Source: Elizabethkingia bruuniana
Lineage (GTDB): Bacteria > Bacteroidota > Bacteroidia > Flavobacteriales > Weeksellaceae
Length of the DNA stretch: 64,000 nt
NCBI RefSeq assembly: GCF_002024805.1
Contig: NZ_CP014337.1
Span: 1,674,001 to 1,738,000 of the forward strand
Direction of reading: 5' to 3'
Both the position numbers and the translations under genes were made by a program. Position 1 is the stretch's first letter, and each line of letters begins with the position of its first letter. The notes under the pieces are model-generated. The model had not been told where the DNA came from and searched no databases. It worked only from the letters and a program-made list of their open reading frames with translations. This document shows positions 2,672 to 51,670 of this stretch, one piece after another.

Positions 2672-3889
2672 TTAACAGTTATAATACGCTTCGGGGATCT
2701 CAACCTGCTTTTTCGTCATTTGCTCCAATTGCTGAGCAAACTGATCGAAGAAATAAGTGTCTTCTATAAAGACGTACAGATAATTTCCGGTACTAAGATG
2801 CACAATAAGATCTGCGTACCCTGCTCCTTTTGCCGGAAGAACATTCTGAAGTGTAAAATATTTAATTTTTTCAAGATCTAAAATCAATGCAGTATCTATT
2901 CCTGCAAATCCGATTTTATGATTGGTATTATCTATCCAGATACCACTTTTTCCTCCCAGTAGTTCTTTTACCTTTAGCGGAATGTGTTTAATGCCGTCGT
3001 GATCGATATAACTGACTTTCATATCTAATCTGTTATGGAAGGATATTAGTCTGGATATTTCCATCATTTCTTCGTATTCTTTATTCTCTAAAAAATACCT
3101 GTATTCTCTTTTGTTATAGAAATGAAGCGATGTGCTGCCATCATCATAGGCATATTCTTTATCGTAGGTATAGCATATAGAAGCATTTATACCATTTGCC
3201 AAAACAAATTGCAGATAACATTGGTCTTCTCTTTCATAGCCGTATTGATTAATATCAATATCGTCATCAATCCAAAGTCCTCTCAATTGCTGATAGCTTT
3301 TATCAGTATTGGTTTCGTCATACAGGTTCACGAAAAACTCTTGCACAGGGCGATTAGTACTGATGTTGTCAGCATATATTTCTAATTGATCGATAAGGAT
3401 GCCTTCTATTCTAACAGGATATCTGAATCTTAAATATCTGGCACCAAAATCGGTAAAATAAGCTTCTACACAACCCGATGCTTCCAGTTGTTCGTAAGTA
3501 GTATCCCAAGACATCATCTGCCGGGGCTGTGCATATACTTCGTAGCCAAAATCGACATCATCCGGATATTCGTCAAGAATCTGATAATTCCGAGGCATTT
3601 TTTTTGCCCAAATTTTTACTTTATCATCTTCATTTCCGGCTTTACATACTGCAAAAAAGGTTTCGTCATCAAAACCAAACCGATCTGACAATTCTTGATA
3701 TACTTCTGCAAAACCTTTCAGCTCGGTAGATATATAGTGTTGGTGATCTGCGAAAACAAACAGAAAGGGTACATCTCCTAAAATCTGTACATATGCATAT
3801 TGTAGTGACTGAATATTTGCATTTTCAATATTACTATGATCTTTATAAAAAAGTGTATCTCCCTCTATCCAGGTTCCTTTATTATCCAT
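2672..3889 (-). CDS. Uncharacterised 405-aa cytosolic protein
   Basis: Complete frame from ATG at 3889. No signal peptide or membrane segment; the protein is acidic and rich in aromatic residues. The N-terminal ~90 residues (GTWIEGDTLFYKD...LFVFADHQHYISTEL) and the C-terminal ~80 residues (GKSGIWIDNTNHKIGFAGIDTALILDLEKIKYFTL...LYVFIEDTYFFDQFAQQLEQM) resemble each other in style. Each reads like a small beta-rich domain describing a value and a threshold, so an internal duplication is possible. I do not recognise the family. It sits with an SMI1/KNR4 protein and other orphan proteins in a one-strand block, so an immunity-type or contact-dependent role is possible, but this is inference from neighbourhood only. 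Confidence 0.7.
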   Translation of the reverse strand: MDNKGTWIEGDTLFYKDHSNIENANIQSLQYAYVQILGDVPFLFVFADHQHYISTELKGFAEVYQELSDRFGFDDETFFAVCKAGNEDDKVKIWAKKMPRNYQILDEYPDDVDFGYEVYAQPRQMMSWDTTYEQLEASGCVEAYFTDFGARYLRFRYPVRIEGILIDQLEIYADNISTNRPVQEFFVNLYDETNTDKSYQQLRGLWIDDDIDINQYGYEREDQCYLQFVLANGINASICYTYDKEYAYDDGSTSLHFYNKREYRYFLENKEYEEMMEISRLISFHNRLDMKVSYIDHDGIKHIPLKVKELLGGKSGIWIDNTNHKIGFAGIDTALILDLEKIKYFTLQNVLPAKGAGYADLIVHLSTGNYLYVFIEDTYFFDQFAQQLEQMTKKQVEIPEAYYNC

Positions 3890-3935
3890 TTACGGTTTCT
3901 CTTATATATTTTGTAAAGTTGAGTTTTCTATCAGA

Positions 3936-13875: not shown

Positions 13876-13908
13876 TAAGTAATATCAAAAAATCTATAGA
13901 ATAAGAAA

Positions 13909-13936
13909 AAGGCCGCTCCCATTCAAGAGCGGCCTT
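13909..13936 (+). terminator. Intrinsic terminator after the GNAT gene
   Basis: Ten-base arms AAGGCCGCTC and GAGCGGCCTT around an 8-base loop, followed by CCATTT. The stem is long and GC-rich; the T-run is short. Confidence 0.75.
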
Positions 13937-14060
13937 CCATTTAACACCAAAGAATTATTTAAATATAAAATACCTAATATTATATTTAAATTAACACTTT
14001 CTAATTTATTAGTAAAAAATATTTATTATTTTAGAAAGCCAAACCATATTTTTTTTAGAA

Positions 14061-14291
14061 ATGAAAAAAATCAATTTTGGTGCTTCTAATGGAAAGAAAT
14101 TGTTCAGAGCACAATTAAAGAACGTATTTGGAGGAATTTATCAACAACCTGAGGGATTAGAACATGACCCAAATGATAAGTACTGTGGTGGTGGTGATAT
14201 GTGTAGTGGAAGCAGTGATTGTCCTCCCGGAACGGCATGTGGCGCTTTTGGAAGACCCGGAGAGACTTGCTCCAGATGTCTTTCAGTTTAA
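14061..14291 (+). CDS. Cys-rich small peptide with double-glycine-type leader
   Basis: 76 residues. The leader (about residues 1-25) ends KKLFRAQLKNVFGG, close to the LSxxQLKxIxGG leaders of Bacteroidota natural-product or bacteriocin-like precursors, with GG at 24-25. The core (26-76) is small and hydrophilic with six cysteines (C42, C48, C54, C60, C70, C73) spaced like a disulfide-knotted peptide. It ends SRCLSV. No ABC transporter-peptidase or modification gene is adjacent. A strong hairpin with a T-run (14296-14326) separates it from the GLPGLI gene 51 bp downstream. Function unknown: a secreted peptide, bacteriocin-like or signalling, is inference. A second such pair lies at 47.6-48.7 kb. 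Confidence 0.78.
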   Translation: MKKINFGASNGKKLFRAQLKNVFGGIYQQPEGLEHDPNDKYCGGGDMCSGSSDCPPGTACGAFGRPGETCSRCLSV

Positions 14292-14295
14292 GACA

Positions 14296-14326
14296 AAGCA
14301 ATGAGGATTATCCTTATTGCTTTTTT
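14296..14326 (+). terminator. Hairpin between the Cys-rich peptide and the GLPGLI gene
   Basis: Twelve-base arms AAGCAATGAGGA and TCCTTATTGCTT pair fully (one G-T) around a TTA loop, and the stem runs into TTTTTT. It starts 5 bases after the peptide stop and ends 17 bases before the GLPGLI start. It could be a partial terminator that keeps expression of the downstream gene below that of the peptide, or a stabiliser of the peptide mRNA. Confidence 0.8.
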
Positions 14327-14342
14327 AAATTTATACTGAATT

Positions 14343-15143
14343 ATGAAAATAATATATATACTTACAATAATACTAATGTCTGTACAGCTCTCAGCGCAGA
14401 AAAAAACATTTGTATACCATTTAAAATACAATGACGGTACAGGAAAAGATTCCGTAGAAAGAAATTATGTTTTAGATGTTTCCGATAACAAATCTATTTT
14501 CAGATCTATTTCAGAAAGGAAATCAGATTCCTTATTATCAAATGGAAAATATGGCTTTGGAAGTAGTTATTGTTTTGAAGAGCAATTTTATATCAATAAA
14601 GATTTAAAAGAAAACAAAATACTAAAACAAGTCAGAAATTTTTTTGGACGCTACTTGATTAAAATAGATGAAAAATTAAATTGGAAGATCCTTTCGGAAA
14701 ATAGCAAAATAGGGAGTTATACTGTCCAAAAAGCGGAAACAGATTATGGAGGTAGACATTGGGTCGCTTGGTTTACAACAGAGATTCCAATTCCGGAAGG
14801 CCCATATATATTTAATGGTCTCCCGGGTCTCATAGTTCAGGTAACTGACGATAAGAACGATTATGCTTTTTCTTTAAATGAAGTAAAAAACTTTGATGGC
14901 AATTTATTTCAGATGAAAAAAGGAATTATTATGGATTTCCCAACTTTTCAAAAGTTTTCTATGAATTATTATAATGATCCTTTTTCAGAAGCAGCAGCTA
15001 GAAATATGCCAATGGCAAAAGAAGATGAGAATGGAAATCCACAAAAGATTACAAAAAAAGAAATGAACGATATGGCTCAAAAATATATTAAGGAAAAAGG
15101 GAGTAATCCAATTGAATTAAAATATAAAAACATATACAATTAA
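14343..15143 (+). CDS. GLPGLI family secreted protein, locus 1
   Basis: 266 residues with a signal peptide (MKIIYILTIILMSVQLSAQ). The family signature is at residues 159-164 (GLPGLI) inside GPYIFNGLPGLIVQV, preceded by the conserved KAETDYGGRHWVAWFTTEIPIPEGP. This is the TIGR01200 family, secreted proteins widespread in Bacteroidota and of unknown function. The first ~130 residues form a beta-rich domain (FVYHLKYND...NYVLDVSDNKSIFRS) and the C-terminus is a charged helical tail. It is probably co-transcribed, at a lower level, with the Cys-rich peptide upstream. A second GLPGLI protein (47588-48406) shares the central segment almost exactly. Confidence 0.92.
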   Translation: MKIIYILTIILMSVQLSAQKKTFVYHLKYNDGTGKDSVERNYVLDVSDNKSIFRSISERKSDSLLSNGKYGFGSSYCFEEQFYINKDLKENKILKQVRNFFGRYLIKIDEKLNWKILSENSKIGSYTVQKAETDYGGRHWVAWFTTEIPIPEGPYIFNGLPGLIVQVTDDKNDYAFSLNEVKNFDGNLFQMKKGIIMDFPTFQKFSMNYYNDPFSEAAARNMPMAKEDENGNPQKITKKEMNDMAQKYIKEKGSNPIELKYKNIYN

Positions 15144-15144
15144 A

Positions 15145-15168
15145 ATAGCCCCTTTCGGGGCTATTATT
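15145..15168. terminator. Bidirectional terminator between GLPGLI gene and carB
   Basis: ATAGCCCC-tttc-GGGGCTAT at 15145-15164. On the plus strand it is followed by TATTTTTTATTT, and on the minus strand by TTTTAATTG. It closes both the GLPGLI gene (stop just upstream) and the pyrimidine operon, whose carB stop is 29 bases away. Confidence 0.85.
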
Positions 15169-47587: not shown

Positions 47588-48406
47588 TTATTTAGAATAT
47601 TTTATTATTCTATTTTTCTCTACTTGATTATCATTTTTCTTTATGAATCCCTGAGTAGAAAGTGTAGCTTCTCTAAAATCCAGTTTTTTAACCCCGCCAC
47701 TACCATCATCTTGAACAGCTTTATAACCTCCTGCTTTTACAAATGCATAAGGATCAATATAAAAATCTTGCTGAATTTTTATAAATGTATCCCAGTTTAT
47801 TTCCTTTGCTCCCTGTACTGAAAAATTGGTATCAGAATTAAATTTTCGAGTTTTTGTTAATTTAAATACATACTCGTGATTTGAATCCTCAATTTGAATT
47901 ATTAACCCAGGTAAACCATGAAAAATATAAGGCCCCTCTGAAAGTTGAATTTCTTGCGTAAACCAAGCAACCCAATGTCTTCCTCCATAATCTGTTTCAG
48001 CTTTTTGACATTCTAGACTACCTATTTTTTGAATATCTGATAAAAGCCTCCAATTTAATTTTGCATCAATATCGATGTAAAATTTATCTAAACTAACTGG
48101 AGAAACAATATACTTCGTAATTTTATTTTTCTTTAGATCCTTTTTTATATAGATCTGATCGCTATAATTATTGCTATATGCTAATCCATAGCTTCCTCTA
48201 TAATTTATTATCGAATCAGAATGTCTTCGGAAATCATCTCTAAAAACAGATTCACTACCAATTATATCTAAAAAAAAAGTTTTTGTTTTAATATAATCAC
48301 TGCTTGTTGATGGTTTATACGTAAGTTCATATATTATTGATGTGTTTTGCGCCCCAAAAAAAGAAGACACAAAAAACATTATTAATATGTTTATTTTGAT
48401 GTACAT
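47588..48406 (-). CDS. GLPGLI family secreted protein, locus 2
   Basis: 272 residues with a signal peptide (MYIKINILIMFFVSSFFGAQ). The family signature is GPYIFHGLPGLIIQI (GLPGLI at 164-169), preceded by QKAETDYGGRHWVAWFTQEI, nearly identical to the locus-1 protein (14343-15143). Both share the early beta-rich part and a stretch LDIIGSESVFRDDF compared with LDVSDNKSIFRSIS. The C-terminal part is more diverged (lysine- and asparagine-rich). Function unknown. It follows a second Cys-rich peptide gene with a hairpin in between (48424-48453), the same arrangement as at 14 kb. Confidence 0.92.
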   Translation of the reverse strand: MYIKINILIMFFVSSFFGAQNTSIIYELTYKPSTSSDYIKTKTFFLDIIGSESVFRDDFRRHSDSIINYRGSYGLAYSNNYSDQIYIKKDLKKNKITKYIVSPVSLDKFYIDIDAKLNWRLLSDIQKIGSLECQKAETDYGGRHWVAWFTQEIQLSEGPYIFHGLPGLIIQIEDSNHEYVFKLTKTRKFNSDTNFSVQGAKEINWDTFIKIQQDFYIDPYAFVKAGGYKAVQDDGSGGVKKLDFREATLSTQGFIKKNDNQVEKNRIIKYSK

Positions 48407-48423
48407 AATATTCTAAATTTATA

Positions 48424-48453
48424 AACTGTCTCTAGGATATCTTAGAGGCAGTT
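48424..48453 (-). promoter_or_regulatory. Hairpin between the second Cys-rich peptide and GLPGLI gene
   Basis: On the minus strand AACTGCCTCTA and TAGAGACAGTT pair with one mismatch around an 8-base loop, followed by TTATAAATTT. The T-run is weaker than at locus 1 but the position (between peptide stop and GLPGLI start) is the same. Confidence 0.6.
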
Positions 48454-48476
48454 AAACTTTCTTTAATTTAAAAAAT

Positions 48477-48656
48477 TTAGAGACATCTCCATGCAGACCA
48501 ATCTCCATTAGCATAATCTTTTCCATGAAAAATCCCACATTCTAAGCCATACTGCCCACACGTGTCATTTTTCCCTGGTACACACATACTTTCAGGAGCC
48601 TGCCCTCTTTTTAGATTTTTTAAATCTGTTATGGATAATCTTTTTAGATTTTTCAT
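48477..48656 (-). CDS. Cys-containing small peptide with leader-like N-terminus, locus 2
   Basis: 59 codons from ATG 48656 to TAA 48477-48479, read by hand and too short for an ordinary gene finder. The N-terminus KRLSITDLKNLKRGQ resembles the LSxxQLKxIxGG leader of Bacteroidota peptide precursors, but has RG in place of GG (G18). The core contains four cysteines (C25, C33, C40, C58) in a short hydrophilic, tryptophan-containing sequence (MCVPGKNDTCGQYGLECGIF). The GLPGLI gene starts 71 bp downstream. I regard it as a paralogue in role, but not in sequence, of the peptide at 14061. Confidence 0.65.
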   Translation of the reverse strand: MKNLKRLSITDLKNLKRGQAPESMCVPGKNDTCGQYGLECGIFHGKDYANGDWSAWRCL

Positions 48657-48745
48657 ATTTTAATAATTAATATCTTAAATATAAATATTTAATCTAAATA
48701 AATTGATTAACATAATATATTTTCAATAACAAAGCCTGTTAAAAC

Positions 48746-48796: not shown

Positions 48797-51670
48797 TTAG
48801 GGTTTTTCATCTGTCAGATCAAATCCCCAGTCTTTACCTTTCATTGTTGCCGGAATACCTTTGGTCATCCATGCTGGAGCTTTGGCTCCCTTCAGGTAAT
48901 AATCAAAGAACTGCTGTTCTCTAATCTGAATATCTTTTCTGTTCTGACGTTTGATCAGGTTATGATCATCACCATTATAGTTAAGCATCCATACCGGTTT
49001 CCCTAATCTTCTTAATGCTGTAAACATTTCGATTCCCTGATACCATGGCACTGCTCCATCTTTGTCATTGGCCATTACCACTACAGGTGTATTTACTTTA
49101 TCAAAATGGAATAATGGAGAGTTTTCGATATATAAATCTCTTGCTTCCCATAAGGTCTTCCCTATTCTACTTTGAGATTTCTCATATTGGAACTGTCTGT
49201 TCATACCAGATCCCCAACGAATTCCACCATAAGCCGAAGTCATATTGGCCACTGGAGCACCAGCCCATGCAGCAGCATACATATCGGTTTGCGTAATAAG
49301 ATGAGTTACCTGATAACCACCCCAGCTTTGGCCTTGTATTCCGATGTGGTTTCCATCTACCCAAGGATTTTTCTTTAGGTACTCTACTCCGGAATTGATA
49401 TATTCCACAGCGAATCTTCCCGGATGACCATCTTCATTATAGGAAATATCCGGTGTGAAAACTAAATATCCGTTACTTACAAAATAAGAAATATTCAGAC
49501 GAGACGGTGTTGGAGCCGGAGCTACATATCTGTTCAGATTCTCAGACAATTTCTCGTAGAAATAAACAATCATAGGATATTTCTTATTCGGATCAAAATT
49601 TTCCGGCTTAAACAAAACACCTGTAGATTGATAGCCTTTTGGTGTTGTCCAGTTAACAAGTTCATCTGTTCCCCAGTTATATTGGGCTTGTTGAGGGTTT
49701 GTATCAGAAAGCTGAGTTTGCTCTTTAAAATCTGAAGTAGCAAACAAGTTAGGAGACTTTACATAAGATTCTTTAGTAAAGATATACTCGTCTGCATTTT
49801 TAGCCTTCATTAATGTTTTAAAGCCCCAGATATCACCCATGTATACTTCTTTAGGATCTTTACCGGATACTATTGAAGTTTCGTAAATACCATCTGCTTT
49901 TGTAACATTGTTAAAAGCCGAAATATACATTGACTTCCTCCTGTTCATGCTTTTTATATCCTTATCAAGATTATAAGTATCAAAAGTAATCTTATGTGCT
50001 CTTCCATAAGAATTAGTAATATTCCTTGGTGCTTTCTTACCGTTTAAGAAGAATTCCCAAAGGTCATAACGATCTTTGATAATCACAGATTCATCATTGT
50101 CTGTCCATGAAGCTATTCCGTATGCATATGGTTTATCCGGCATATCAAATTCTTCATCTGTGAAAGAAACACTCAGGTTCTTATTTAGCTGAGTTGTGGT
50201 TTTTGTTGCCACACTATAACTGTACCAGTTCCCTTTCTCTCTATCAAAATAAACAATATACCTTCCCAGAGGAGAGGCTACTGCACTACCATTCAGTTCT
50301 TTTACAACCTCTGTAGTATTTCCGTTGATGTTATCTATAAGATAATAGGTCTTTCTATCTGATCCCTCCCATTGTGACTGAATTCTTGATCCTTTATTGG
50401 AAGAACCTAAAACATAAGAAGAATTACCTTCATTAATCAGCCTTATTGTGTCTGTATTGTCATCACCTAAACTGCGGAATACCTCTGGTTTGTCGGTTTG
50501 AAATACTGCTCCGAAAGATTTTTTCAGATCTTTACCCATATTTTTCAACTGGGTTGTCTGTATGTAATCATCTTTATAATTCCATACATCCACTATGGCA
50601 TGATCATTAGCTATTAATGTGGTATCCTTTGCAATTGGCTTCGGTGCTATCCCGAAATAAAGCTGTTTACCGTTTTTACTAAATATTGGTGCTCTGTTTT
50701 CAGAAACAACCCAACCTTTAGGCAAATTAGTATGCTTATTATTTACGACTGTATTCTTAGCATTCTGAGAGAAATAGTACAGCTGATAATCCTTTACCAG
50801 ATCATTCTTAGCAGATAAGGTTCCAATGAAAGCCAGCTTATTCCCTAGTTCATCAAACGTAAGTTGAGAGAAATTACCTTCGCCTTCTGTCAGCTTGTTT
50901 ACCGTTCCCTTCTCAATATCTACCCAATTTACTGTTTGCAAAGCATATTTAACCGGAGCAGACTTATCTTTCTTCTCAGGCTTCTTATTGTCTTTTTTAT
51001 CCTTGTCTTTATCTTCAGGTTTCTGAGTTACAAAGATCAATTGTTTCCCGTTTTCACTAAACTGATAACGGACTACATTTTCATACGTAGTTTTCTTTCC
51101 CGTCAAAAGATTTACAAGAATAAGATCAGATGGCTTTGTACTCGCATCATCGTCTTTCTTATCATCTGCATCATCATCTTTAGCATCAGGTGTAGCCGTT
51201 TTATCTTTCATATTCTCCATCAGGTAAGCCATCCAAGCACCTCCCTTTTCCGGAGATTTAAAAGATTGTACATTCGGTATCTTCTCAATTTTCTGAGTAA
51301 AAAGATTGACAATACCCAATGTATCTTTTGCCAGTTTATCTTTCTTCAGCTTTTTGTCTTTTACAGCTTTAATGTCTTTAAAGAAAGGTTTGATAGAAAA
51401 TAAAGCAAATTTAGAATCGCTGGTGAAAGATAGCTTACTGCCTCTTGGAAATTCAAGTGAGCTTTTAGATTTTGGGGAAGATAGATACAATTTTGAATTT
51501 CCTTCCTGCGGGTCAATATTGTACCCAACCCATTTTCCGTCATTAGAAATCTTCCGGCTTCCTACTGACTGCCAGCCATCATATACCGAATGGTCTAATG
51601 GTTTCTTCTGTGCAAATACACAGACCGATCCCGCCACCAATACAGATGAGAGAATGAATTTTAATTTCAT
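48797..51670 (-). CDS. S9-family prolyl-oligopeptidase-type peptidase
   Basis: 957 residues with a signal peptide (MKLKFILSSVLVAGSVCVFAQ). The N-terminal ~650 residues form a beta-propeller. The C-terminal alpha/beta-hydrolase domain has the nucleophile serine in IGIQGQSWGGYQVTHLI, the aspartate in VVVMANDKDGAVPWYQGIEM and the histidine in NYNGDDHNLIKRQNRKDIQ. Unusual are two charged, low-complexity inserts in the propeller (ATPDAKDDDADDKKDDDA and EDKDKDKKDNKKPEKKDKS). Secreted or periplasmic; likely peptide nutrition. Divergent from the yciO gene. Confidence 0.94.
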   Translation of the reverse strand: MKLKFILSSVLVAGSVCVFAQKKPLDHSVYDGWQSVGSRKISNDGKWVGYNIDPQEGNSKLYLSSPKSKSSLEFPRGSKLSFTSDSKFALFSIKPFFKDIKAVKDKKLKKDKLAKDTLGIVNLFTQKIEKIPNVQSFKSPEKGGAWMAYLMENMKDKTATPDAKDDDADDKKDDDASTKPSDLILVNLLTGKKTTYENVVRYQFSENGKQLIFVTQKPEDKDKDKKDNKKPEKKDKSAPVKYALQTVNWVDIEKGTVNKLTEGEGNFSQLTFDELGNKLAFIGTLSAKNDLVKDYQLYYFSQNAKNTVVNNKHTNLPKGWVVSENRAPIFSKNGKQLYFGIAPKPIAKDTTLIANDHAIVDVWNYKDDYIQTTQLKNMGKDLKKSFGAVFQTDKPEVFRSLGDDNTDTIRLINEGNSSYVLGSSNKGSRIQSQWEGSDRKTYYLIDNINGNTTEVVKELNGSAVASPLGRYIVYFDREKGNWYSYSVATKTTTQLNKNLSVSFTDEEFDMPDKPYAYGIASWTDNDESVIIKDRYDLWEFFLNGKKAPRNITNSYGRAHKITFDTYNLDKDIKSMNRRKSMYISAFNNVTKADGIYETSIVSGKDPKEVYMGDIWGFKTLMKAKNADEYIFTKESYVKSPNLFATSDFKEQTQLSDTNPQQAQYNWGTDELVNWTTPKGYQSTGVLFKPENFDPNKKYPMIVYFYEKLSENLNRYVAPAPTPSRLNISYFVSNGYLVFTPDISYNEDGHPGRFAVEYINSGVEYLKKNPWVDGNHIGIQGQSWGGYQVTHLITQTDMYAAAWAGAPVANMTSAYGGIRWGSGMNRQFQYEKSQSRIGKTLWEARDLYIENSPLFHFDKVNTPVVVMANDKDGAVPWYQGIEMFTALRRLGKPVWMLNYNGDDHNLIKRQNRKDIQIREQQFFDYYLKGAKAPAWMTKGIPATMKGKDWGFDLTDEKP

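Follow-up and report, generated by a model that had tools for sequence, protein, structure and literature searches.

A leader peptide gene and a GLPGLI protein gene form a two-gene cassette in Elizabethkingia bruuniana, with a possible bacteriocin-type function

Class IIa bacteriocins occur in versions exported by a double-glycine (GG) leader and in Sec-dependent versions, and the immunity gene is usually located in the bacteriocin operon (PMC3546714). The bacteroidetocin region of Bacteroidota consists of four genes, which encode a transmembrane protein, the peptide, a thiol oxidoreductase and a C39 transporter, and the producers appear to be without immunity proteins (PMC6671954). The TIGR01200 GLPGLI family (Pfam Porph_ging), to which the present locus leads, carries no assigned function; a literature search on Porph_ging found nothing, and pairing with a peptide was not met in the accessible parts of the literature found mentioning GLPGLI. 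In a study of Riemerella PhoP, five GLPGLI genes are reported among the 50 genes directly regulated by PhoP (PMC9603813).

The window, i.e., the whole stretch of 64,000 nucleotides analysed here, corresponds to G000:C1:1674001-1738000 in a single-contig genome of 4.43 Mb. The features of the pair consisting of the peptide gene P2 and the GLPGLI gene are as follows, in window positions.

48477-48656, minus strand: P2 peptide ORF, 59 aa, with Cys at 25/33/40/58
48603..48656, minus strand: P2 leader MKNLKRLSITDLKNLKRG, residues 1-18, of the double-glycine type but ending in KRG
48477..48602, minus strand: P2 core QAPESMCVPGKNDTCGQYGLECGIFHGKDYANGDWSAWRCL and stop codon, four Cys
48424..48453, minus strand: inverted repeat between the P2 and GLPGLI genes, attenuator/terminator-like, with a weak z of −1.5 in this copy
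47588..48406, minus strand: GLPGLI partner of P2 (TIGR01200), 272 aa, with an N-terminal signal peptide and a LolA/LolB-like predicted fold
48737..48743, no strand given: TTTAACA box upstream of P2
48707-48712: second box, TTAACA, upstream of P2

The first-pass annotation had described a 59-codon ORF with a leader-like N-terminus and four cysteines, which is confirmed on the minus strand, and its description of a secreted-peptide gene with a leader also holds, with cysteine positions that are fixed across the relatives. Stops and frameshifts in close relatives were looked for as a sign against this gene, and the closest P2 orthologue, in the genome G002, is intact. The leader end KRG (48603-48608, minus strand) is atypical, as GG or GS is found in 27 of 27 compared relatives and KGG in the G002 orthologue; at leader position 9, P2 has I and the G002 orthologue R. 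The leader score against NF047798 leader_Chryseo is 12.2 bits, below the cut-off of 23.5 bits, so that P2 is not a member, whereas two P2 paralogues of the same genome exceed the cut-off with 28.3 and 24.5 bits. The export signal of P2 may be decaying. The charge of the P2 core is about −2 and the cores of such peptides are not cationic, which indicates that a P2-type peptide is not a typical membrane-active bacteriocin. The YGNGV-type N-terminal motif of class IIa (PMC3546714) is absent from the P2 core, and the AF2 model of the peptide, with a mean pLDDT of 72, had no structural match in the PDB at E < 0.001 or at Z ≥ 2.

The P2 site holds the peptide and GLPGLI genes only, between an S9 peptidase gene (48797-51670) and a tRNA-Met gene, which is followed by a thioesterase gene; the four-gene bacteroidetocin region is not found there. 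The genome encodes three C39 ABC transporters, none of which adjoins the P2 pair. At L090 4380-11327, a C39 ABC transporter is clustered with an HlyD_3 protein, a VKOR/thioredoxin protein and several leader peptides, and at L063 268-5148, about 1.5 kb from a pair of a Sec-type peptide and GLPGLI, a lantibiotic-dehydratase-like gene adjoins a C39 ABC transporter. A defence system was considered and rejected, as PADLOC gave nothing credible.

The P2 core family follows the pattern C-x-D-x-C-x2-[YFW]GLxCG-x-C. The two paralogues, located at 1510-1512 kb and 60% and 50% identical to P2, have the same cysteine order, and each precedes a GLPGLI gene. A search of 320 family genomes with P2 and both paralogues gave about 30 matches covering core and leader, and a core-only search, with the leaders left out, gave matches in 32 of the 320. 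A GLPGLI gene lies directly downstream of the core in all 30 inspected loci, which is the constant kind of partner claimed at first. The automatic rule identified 27 of these; the other three (L299, L301 and L316) coincide with L121, L117 and L112, where the GLPGLI gene follows the peptide gene at 172, 68 and 108 bp, respectively. In named Chryseobacterium species and in MAGs, with C. soli, C. rhizoplanae, C. cucumeris, C. populi and C. gambrini among them, the pairing was found in 13 of 13 records, some of which coincide with loci from the family search. Matches to the leader alone (L130, L132, L133 and L237) have no GLPGLI gene. A scan of this genome for leaders gave 53 candidates at a lax threshold, and eight leader/GLPGLI pairs were found against about 0.5 expected by chance; the majority of its leader peptides, those clustered by the C39 transporter among them, are without GLPGLI. 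Since the two paralogues and all 30 inspected loci also precede a GLPGLI gene, the pairing is not due to chance, and P2 and its GLPGLI partner form a real two-gene cassette.

The other pair noted in the window, P1 at 14 kb, comprises the following features.

14061..14291, plus strand: P1 peptide, 76 aa, with a GG leader and a six-Cys core; weak leader matches; unrelated to P2
14343..15143, plus strand: GLPGLI partner of P1, 266 aa, TIGR01200 144.3 bits, with a tree position near the P2-type partners
13879..15167, plus strand: P1 cassette as an insertion between a GNAT gene and carB; the site is empty in G002, G003 and G004

The peptides of the two pairs had been described as almost wholly different, and their cores are indeed unrelated. 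The difference arises because P1 and P2 are of different peptide classes; the 14-kb and 47-kb pairs are two different cassettes of one kind and not one positively selected system. The P2 partner is a clear TIGR01200 member (141.3 bits), as is the P1 partner by its score, with the cut-off at 50. Over 260 residues, the P1 and P2 partners share 40% identity, with a peak in KAETDYGGRHWVAWFTxEIxxxEGPYIFxGLPGLI. The near-identity of the central segments pointed out at first is real there, but this segment is the GLPGLI family signature, which is kept in 50 homologues, and it therefore does not single out the P1 and P2 partners.

The genome gave 40 GLPGLI matches. By inspection, about 15 of these genes directly follow a gene for a small peptide of secreted type, eight with a P2-kind leader and about seven with a Sec-type signal, so that the P2 pair, introduced in the first-pass annotation as the second of its kind, is one of about 15. 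About 25 of the 40 are without an adjoining peptide gene, and several GLPGLI genes from outside the family adjoin CarboxypepD_reg/TonB-receptor-like (outer-membrane) genes. This gene context suggests that the original role of the GLPGLI family was probably not immunity. At L068 14624-18081 (minus strand), four tandem GLPGLI genes are present with no adjoining peptide gene.

The AF2 model of the GLPGLI protein (pLDDT 91, 50 sequences) has its best structural match in the N-terminal domain of PNGase F-II (Z 15.1 over 175 residues, rmsd 3.1), followed by LolA, RseB/MucB and relatives (Z about 7-9), all at a sequence identity of 16% or less. The bowl-shaped half-barrel fold predicted for GLPGLI places it in the LolA/LolB-like superfamily. 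In LolA and RseB/MucB, the bowl fold serves to bind lipid or peptide ligands, and the predicted fold would thus be compatible with a peptide-binding role of GLPGLI. No Pfam LolA match was listed for the partner at E 1, no viral relatives of the fold were found at E 0.001, and a literature search on the bowl domain of PNGase F-II together with LolA found nothing.

The P2 core is 95% identical to its G002 orthologue with a dN/dS of 0.11, a value calculated from a small number of sites (23.5 synonymous ones), and the GLPGLI partner is 86% identical to its orthologue with a dN/dS of 0.18. In most other close pairs the core dN/dS is 0.09-0.14; in one pair it reached 0.73 on the basis of very few changes, and dS was unusable in two. 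Diversifying selection on the core, which had been proposed for the system, is rejected with a dN/dS of about 0.1 in most close pairs, because conservation between orthologous cores is strong and at least equal to that of the partner. The core is under purifying selection. The expected conservation of the partner against a variable peptide is not found either, as the distances of core and GLPGLI over 28 pairs are correlated (Spearman 0.45, 0 of 2000 permutations), whereas those of leader and GLPGLI give 0.10 (104 of 2000 permutations), in both cases with a statistic that ignores phylogeny. The GLPGLI tree requires 3 changes for the partners of P2-type cores, compared with 17.1 after shuffling; the partners of another class, A2, form one group, and partners cluster by peptide class.

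The P2 site itself varies between the related genomes. The orthologue is present in G002; in G003 the site is empty, and tRNA-Met lies 125 bp after the stop of the peptidase gene; in G004, the upstream DNA of which resembles G000 and G002, it holds a different leader peptide and a different GLPGLI gene. At the 1512-kb site of G002, the promoter and leader are kept (96% identity up to the leader), the core and the gap are different, and the GLPGLI partner is interrupted. The GLPGLI gene at L190 (G002), about 3202-3900, is interrupted right where the core of the upstream peptide was replaced. In the A2 class, a peptide with a GG leader (L271) and one with a Sec signal (L279) are both followed by GLPGLI, and their DNA similarity extends from the core start through GLPGLI (1022 columns, 70%). 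The core and GLPGLI hence form the conserved unit, and the leader is an exchangeable export tag. Variation arises through the replacement of whole cores or cassettes. In a conserved operon of four related genomes (L267-L270), an A2-class peptide has no GLPGLI within 1.5 kb on either side; in this genome, the L087 operon encodes four leader peptides, and its A2-class member is GLPGLI-less in those relatives.

A hairpin is present in most gaps between the peptide and GLPGLI genes. The median folding z over 28 such gaps is −3.27, compared with −1.11 in 86 ordinary same-strand gaps, i.e., ORF-based gaps from the loci studied (p 0.0008). Upstream of eight leader-peptide cassettes, TTTAACA occurs six times against 1.07 in shuffles (0 of 500). 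TTTAACA is the core reported for the Riemerella PhoP motif (PMC9603813), and the box at 48737..48743 resembles it; PhoP control of P2 is a guess. No promoter motif common to all was found across the P2 family, as enriched k-mers occur in at most eight upstream regions.

The pairing, the co-divergence of core and partner, the purifying selection, the gain, loss and replacement of cassettes, the leader exchange and the predicted fold are directly supported. On these, a peptide of bacteriocin type whose periplasmic partner protects the producer is the likeliest reading, in keeping with the GG-leader and Sec versions of class IIa bacteriocins (PMC3546714). Put specifically, and at slightly less than an even chance, P2 would be an exported disulfide peptide of bacteriocin type, and its cognate periplasmic GLPGLI binding protein would most likely serve self-protection. 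The N-terminal segment of P2 would act as an export signal only, of the double-glycine type, and presumably a C39 ABC transporter from another locus of the genome cuts the leader and exports the core, which is probably disulfide-bonded and otherwise unmodified. The Sec-exported GLPGLI protein, with its LolA/LolB-like bowl, may bind or otherwise act with the cognate core in the periplasm. In the likeliest role, the peptide would act on neighbouring cells and GLPGLI would protect the producer, and the intergenic hairpin would keep the amount of GLPGLI below that of the peptide. The non-cationic cores, the peptide-less GLPGLI genes, the GLPGLI-less peptide of the A2 operon and the bacteroidetocin producers without immunity proteins (PMC6671954) were counted against this bacteriocin-type reading. 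More tentatively, the GLPGLI proteins of Weeksellaceae may make up a large self-protection class, exported and with a LolA fold, in which every member is matched to a secreted disulfide core; core and GLPGLI would then be the unit of inheritance, freely coupled to double-glycine or Sec signals and to different chromosomal sites.

The main rival to self-protection, close behind it although rather unlikely in its own right, is a carrier or folding-helper role, in which GLPGLI takes the exported core in the periplasm and, like LolA, brings it to the outer membrane or aids its disulfide folding, whatever the function of the peptide. The LolA/LolB-like model, the presence of GLPGLI with the A2 core whatever the export route and the outer-membrane gene neighbours outside the family agree with such a role. 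However, most of the leader peptides, including those beside the C39 transporter, are presumably exported without GLPGLI, and the hairpin would put the partner below the peptide in amount, which would still be compatible with a carrier that recycles. A pheromone-like signal, with GLPGLI as its periplasmic receptor or co-receptor, is improbable: the strong purifying selection on the core and the co-divergence with the partner suit it, and the TTTAACA boxes, which are like the Riemerella PhoP motif, suggest two-component control, but no regulator or sensor gene adjoins the P2 pair, and cassette gain, loss and swapping among close relatives are more typical of conflict genes. Least probable is a RiPP precursor, the leader of which recruits a modifying enzyme in trans, as the RiPP-type leader, the RiPP chryseobasin from Chryseobacterium (PMC10214503) and the lantibiotic-dehydratase-like gene by one C39 transporter are outweighed by the lack of an adjoining modifying enzyme, both at P2 and at its two paralogues at 1510-1512 kb, and by the A2 core made with a Sec signal in the leader's place, which argues against leader-guided cytoplasmic modification in that class.

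The cassette gives GLPGLI, with its 40 copies of so far unassigned function in this genome, a cognate small-peptide partner and hence a directly testable role, and if GLPGLI protects against the peptide as the self-protection reading has it, this protection would be a new kind of bacteriocin immunity in Gram-negative bacteria; a literature search on periplasmic immunity with microcins found nothing relevant. The P2/GLPGLI unit travels together and is swappable across Chryseobacterium relatives, and the leader exchange identifies the functional unit within the precursor.

Compared with known systems, P2 shares its leader type with the "bacteriocin-like protein" model NF047798, which spans only 18 leader positions and says nothing on the core or GLPGLI. 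The predicted GLPGLI fold is that of the N-terminal bowl domain of PNGase F-II, LolA and RseB/MucB, whereas GLPGLI is a stand-alone protein. The bacteroidetocins (PMC6671954) resemble P2 in their Bacteroidota hosts and leader peptide, and their region is resembled by the cluster of C39 transporter, HlyD_3, VKOR/thioredoxin protein and leader peptides, with its C39 exporter and thiol oxidoreductase, elsewhere in this genome, although the P2 core is different and the exporter does not adjoin the P2 pair. In relation to the class IIa bacteriocin/immunity operons (PMC3546714), the present pair differs in its exported and LolA-like partner and its Gram-negative host, and the likeness lies in the unit of peptide and partner and in the GG-leader and Sec-dependent versions.
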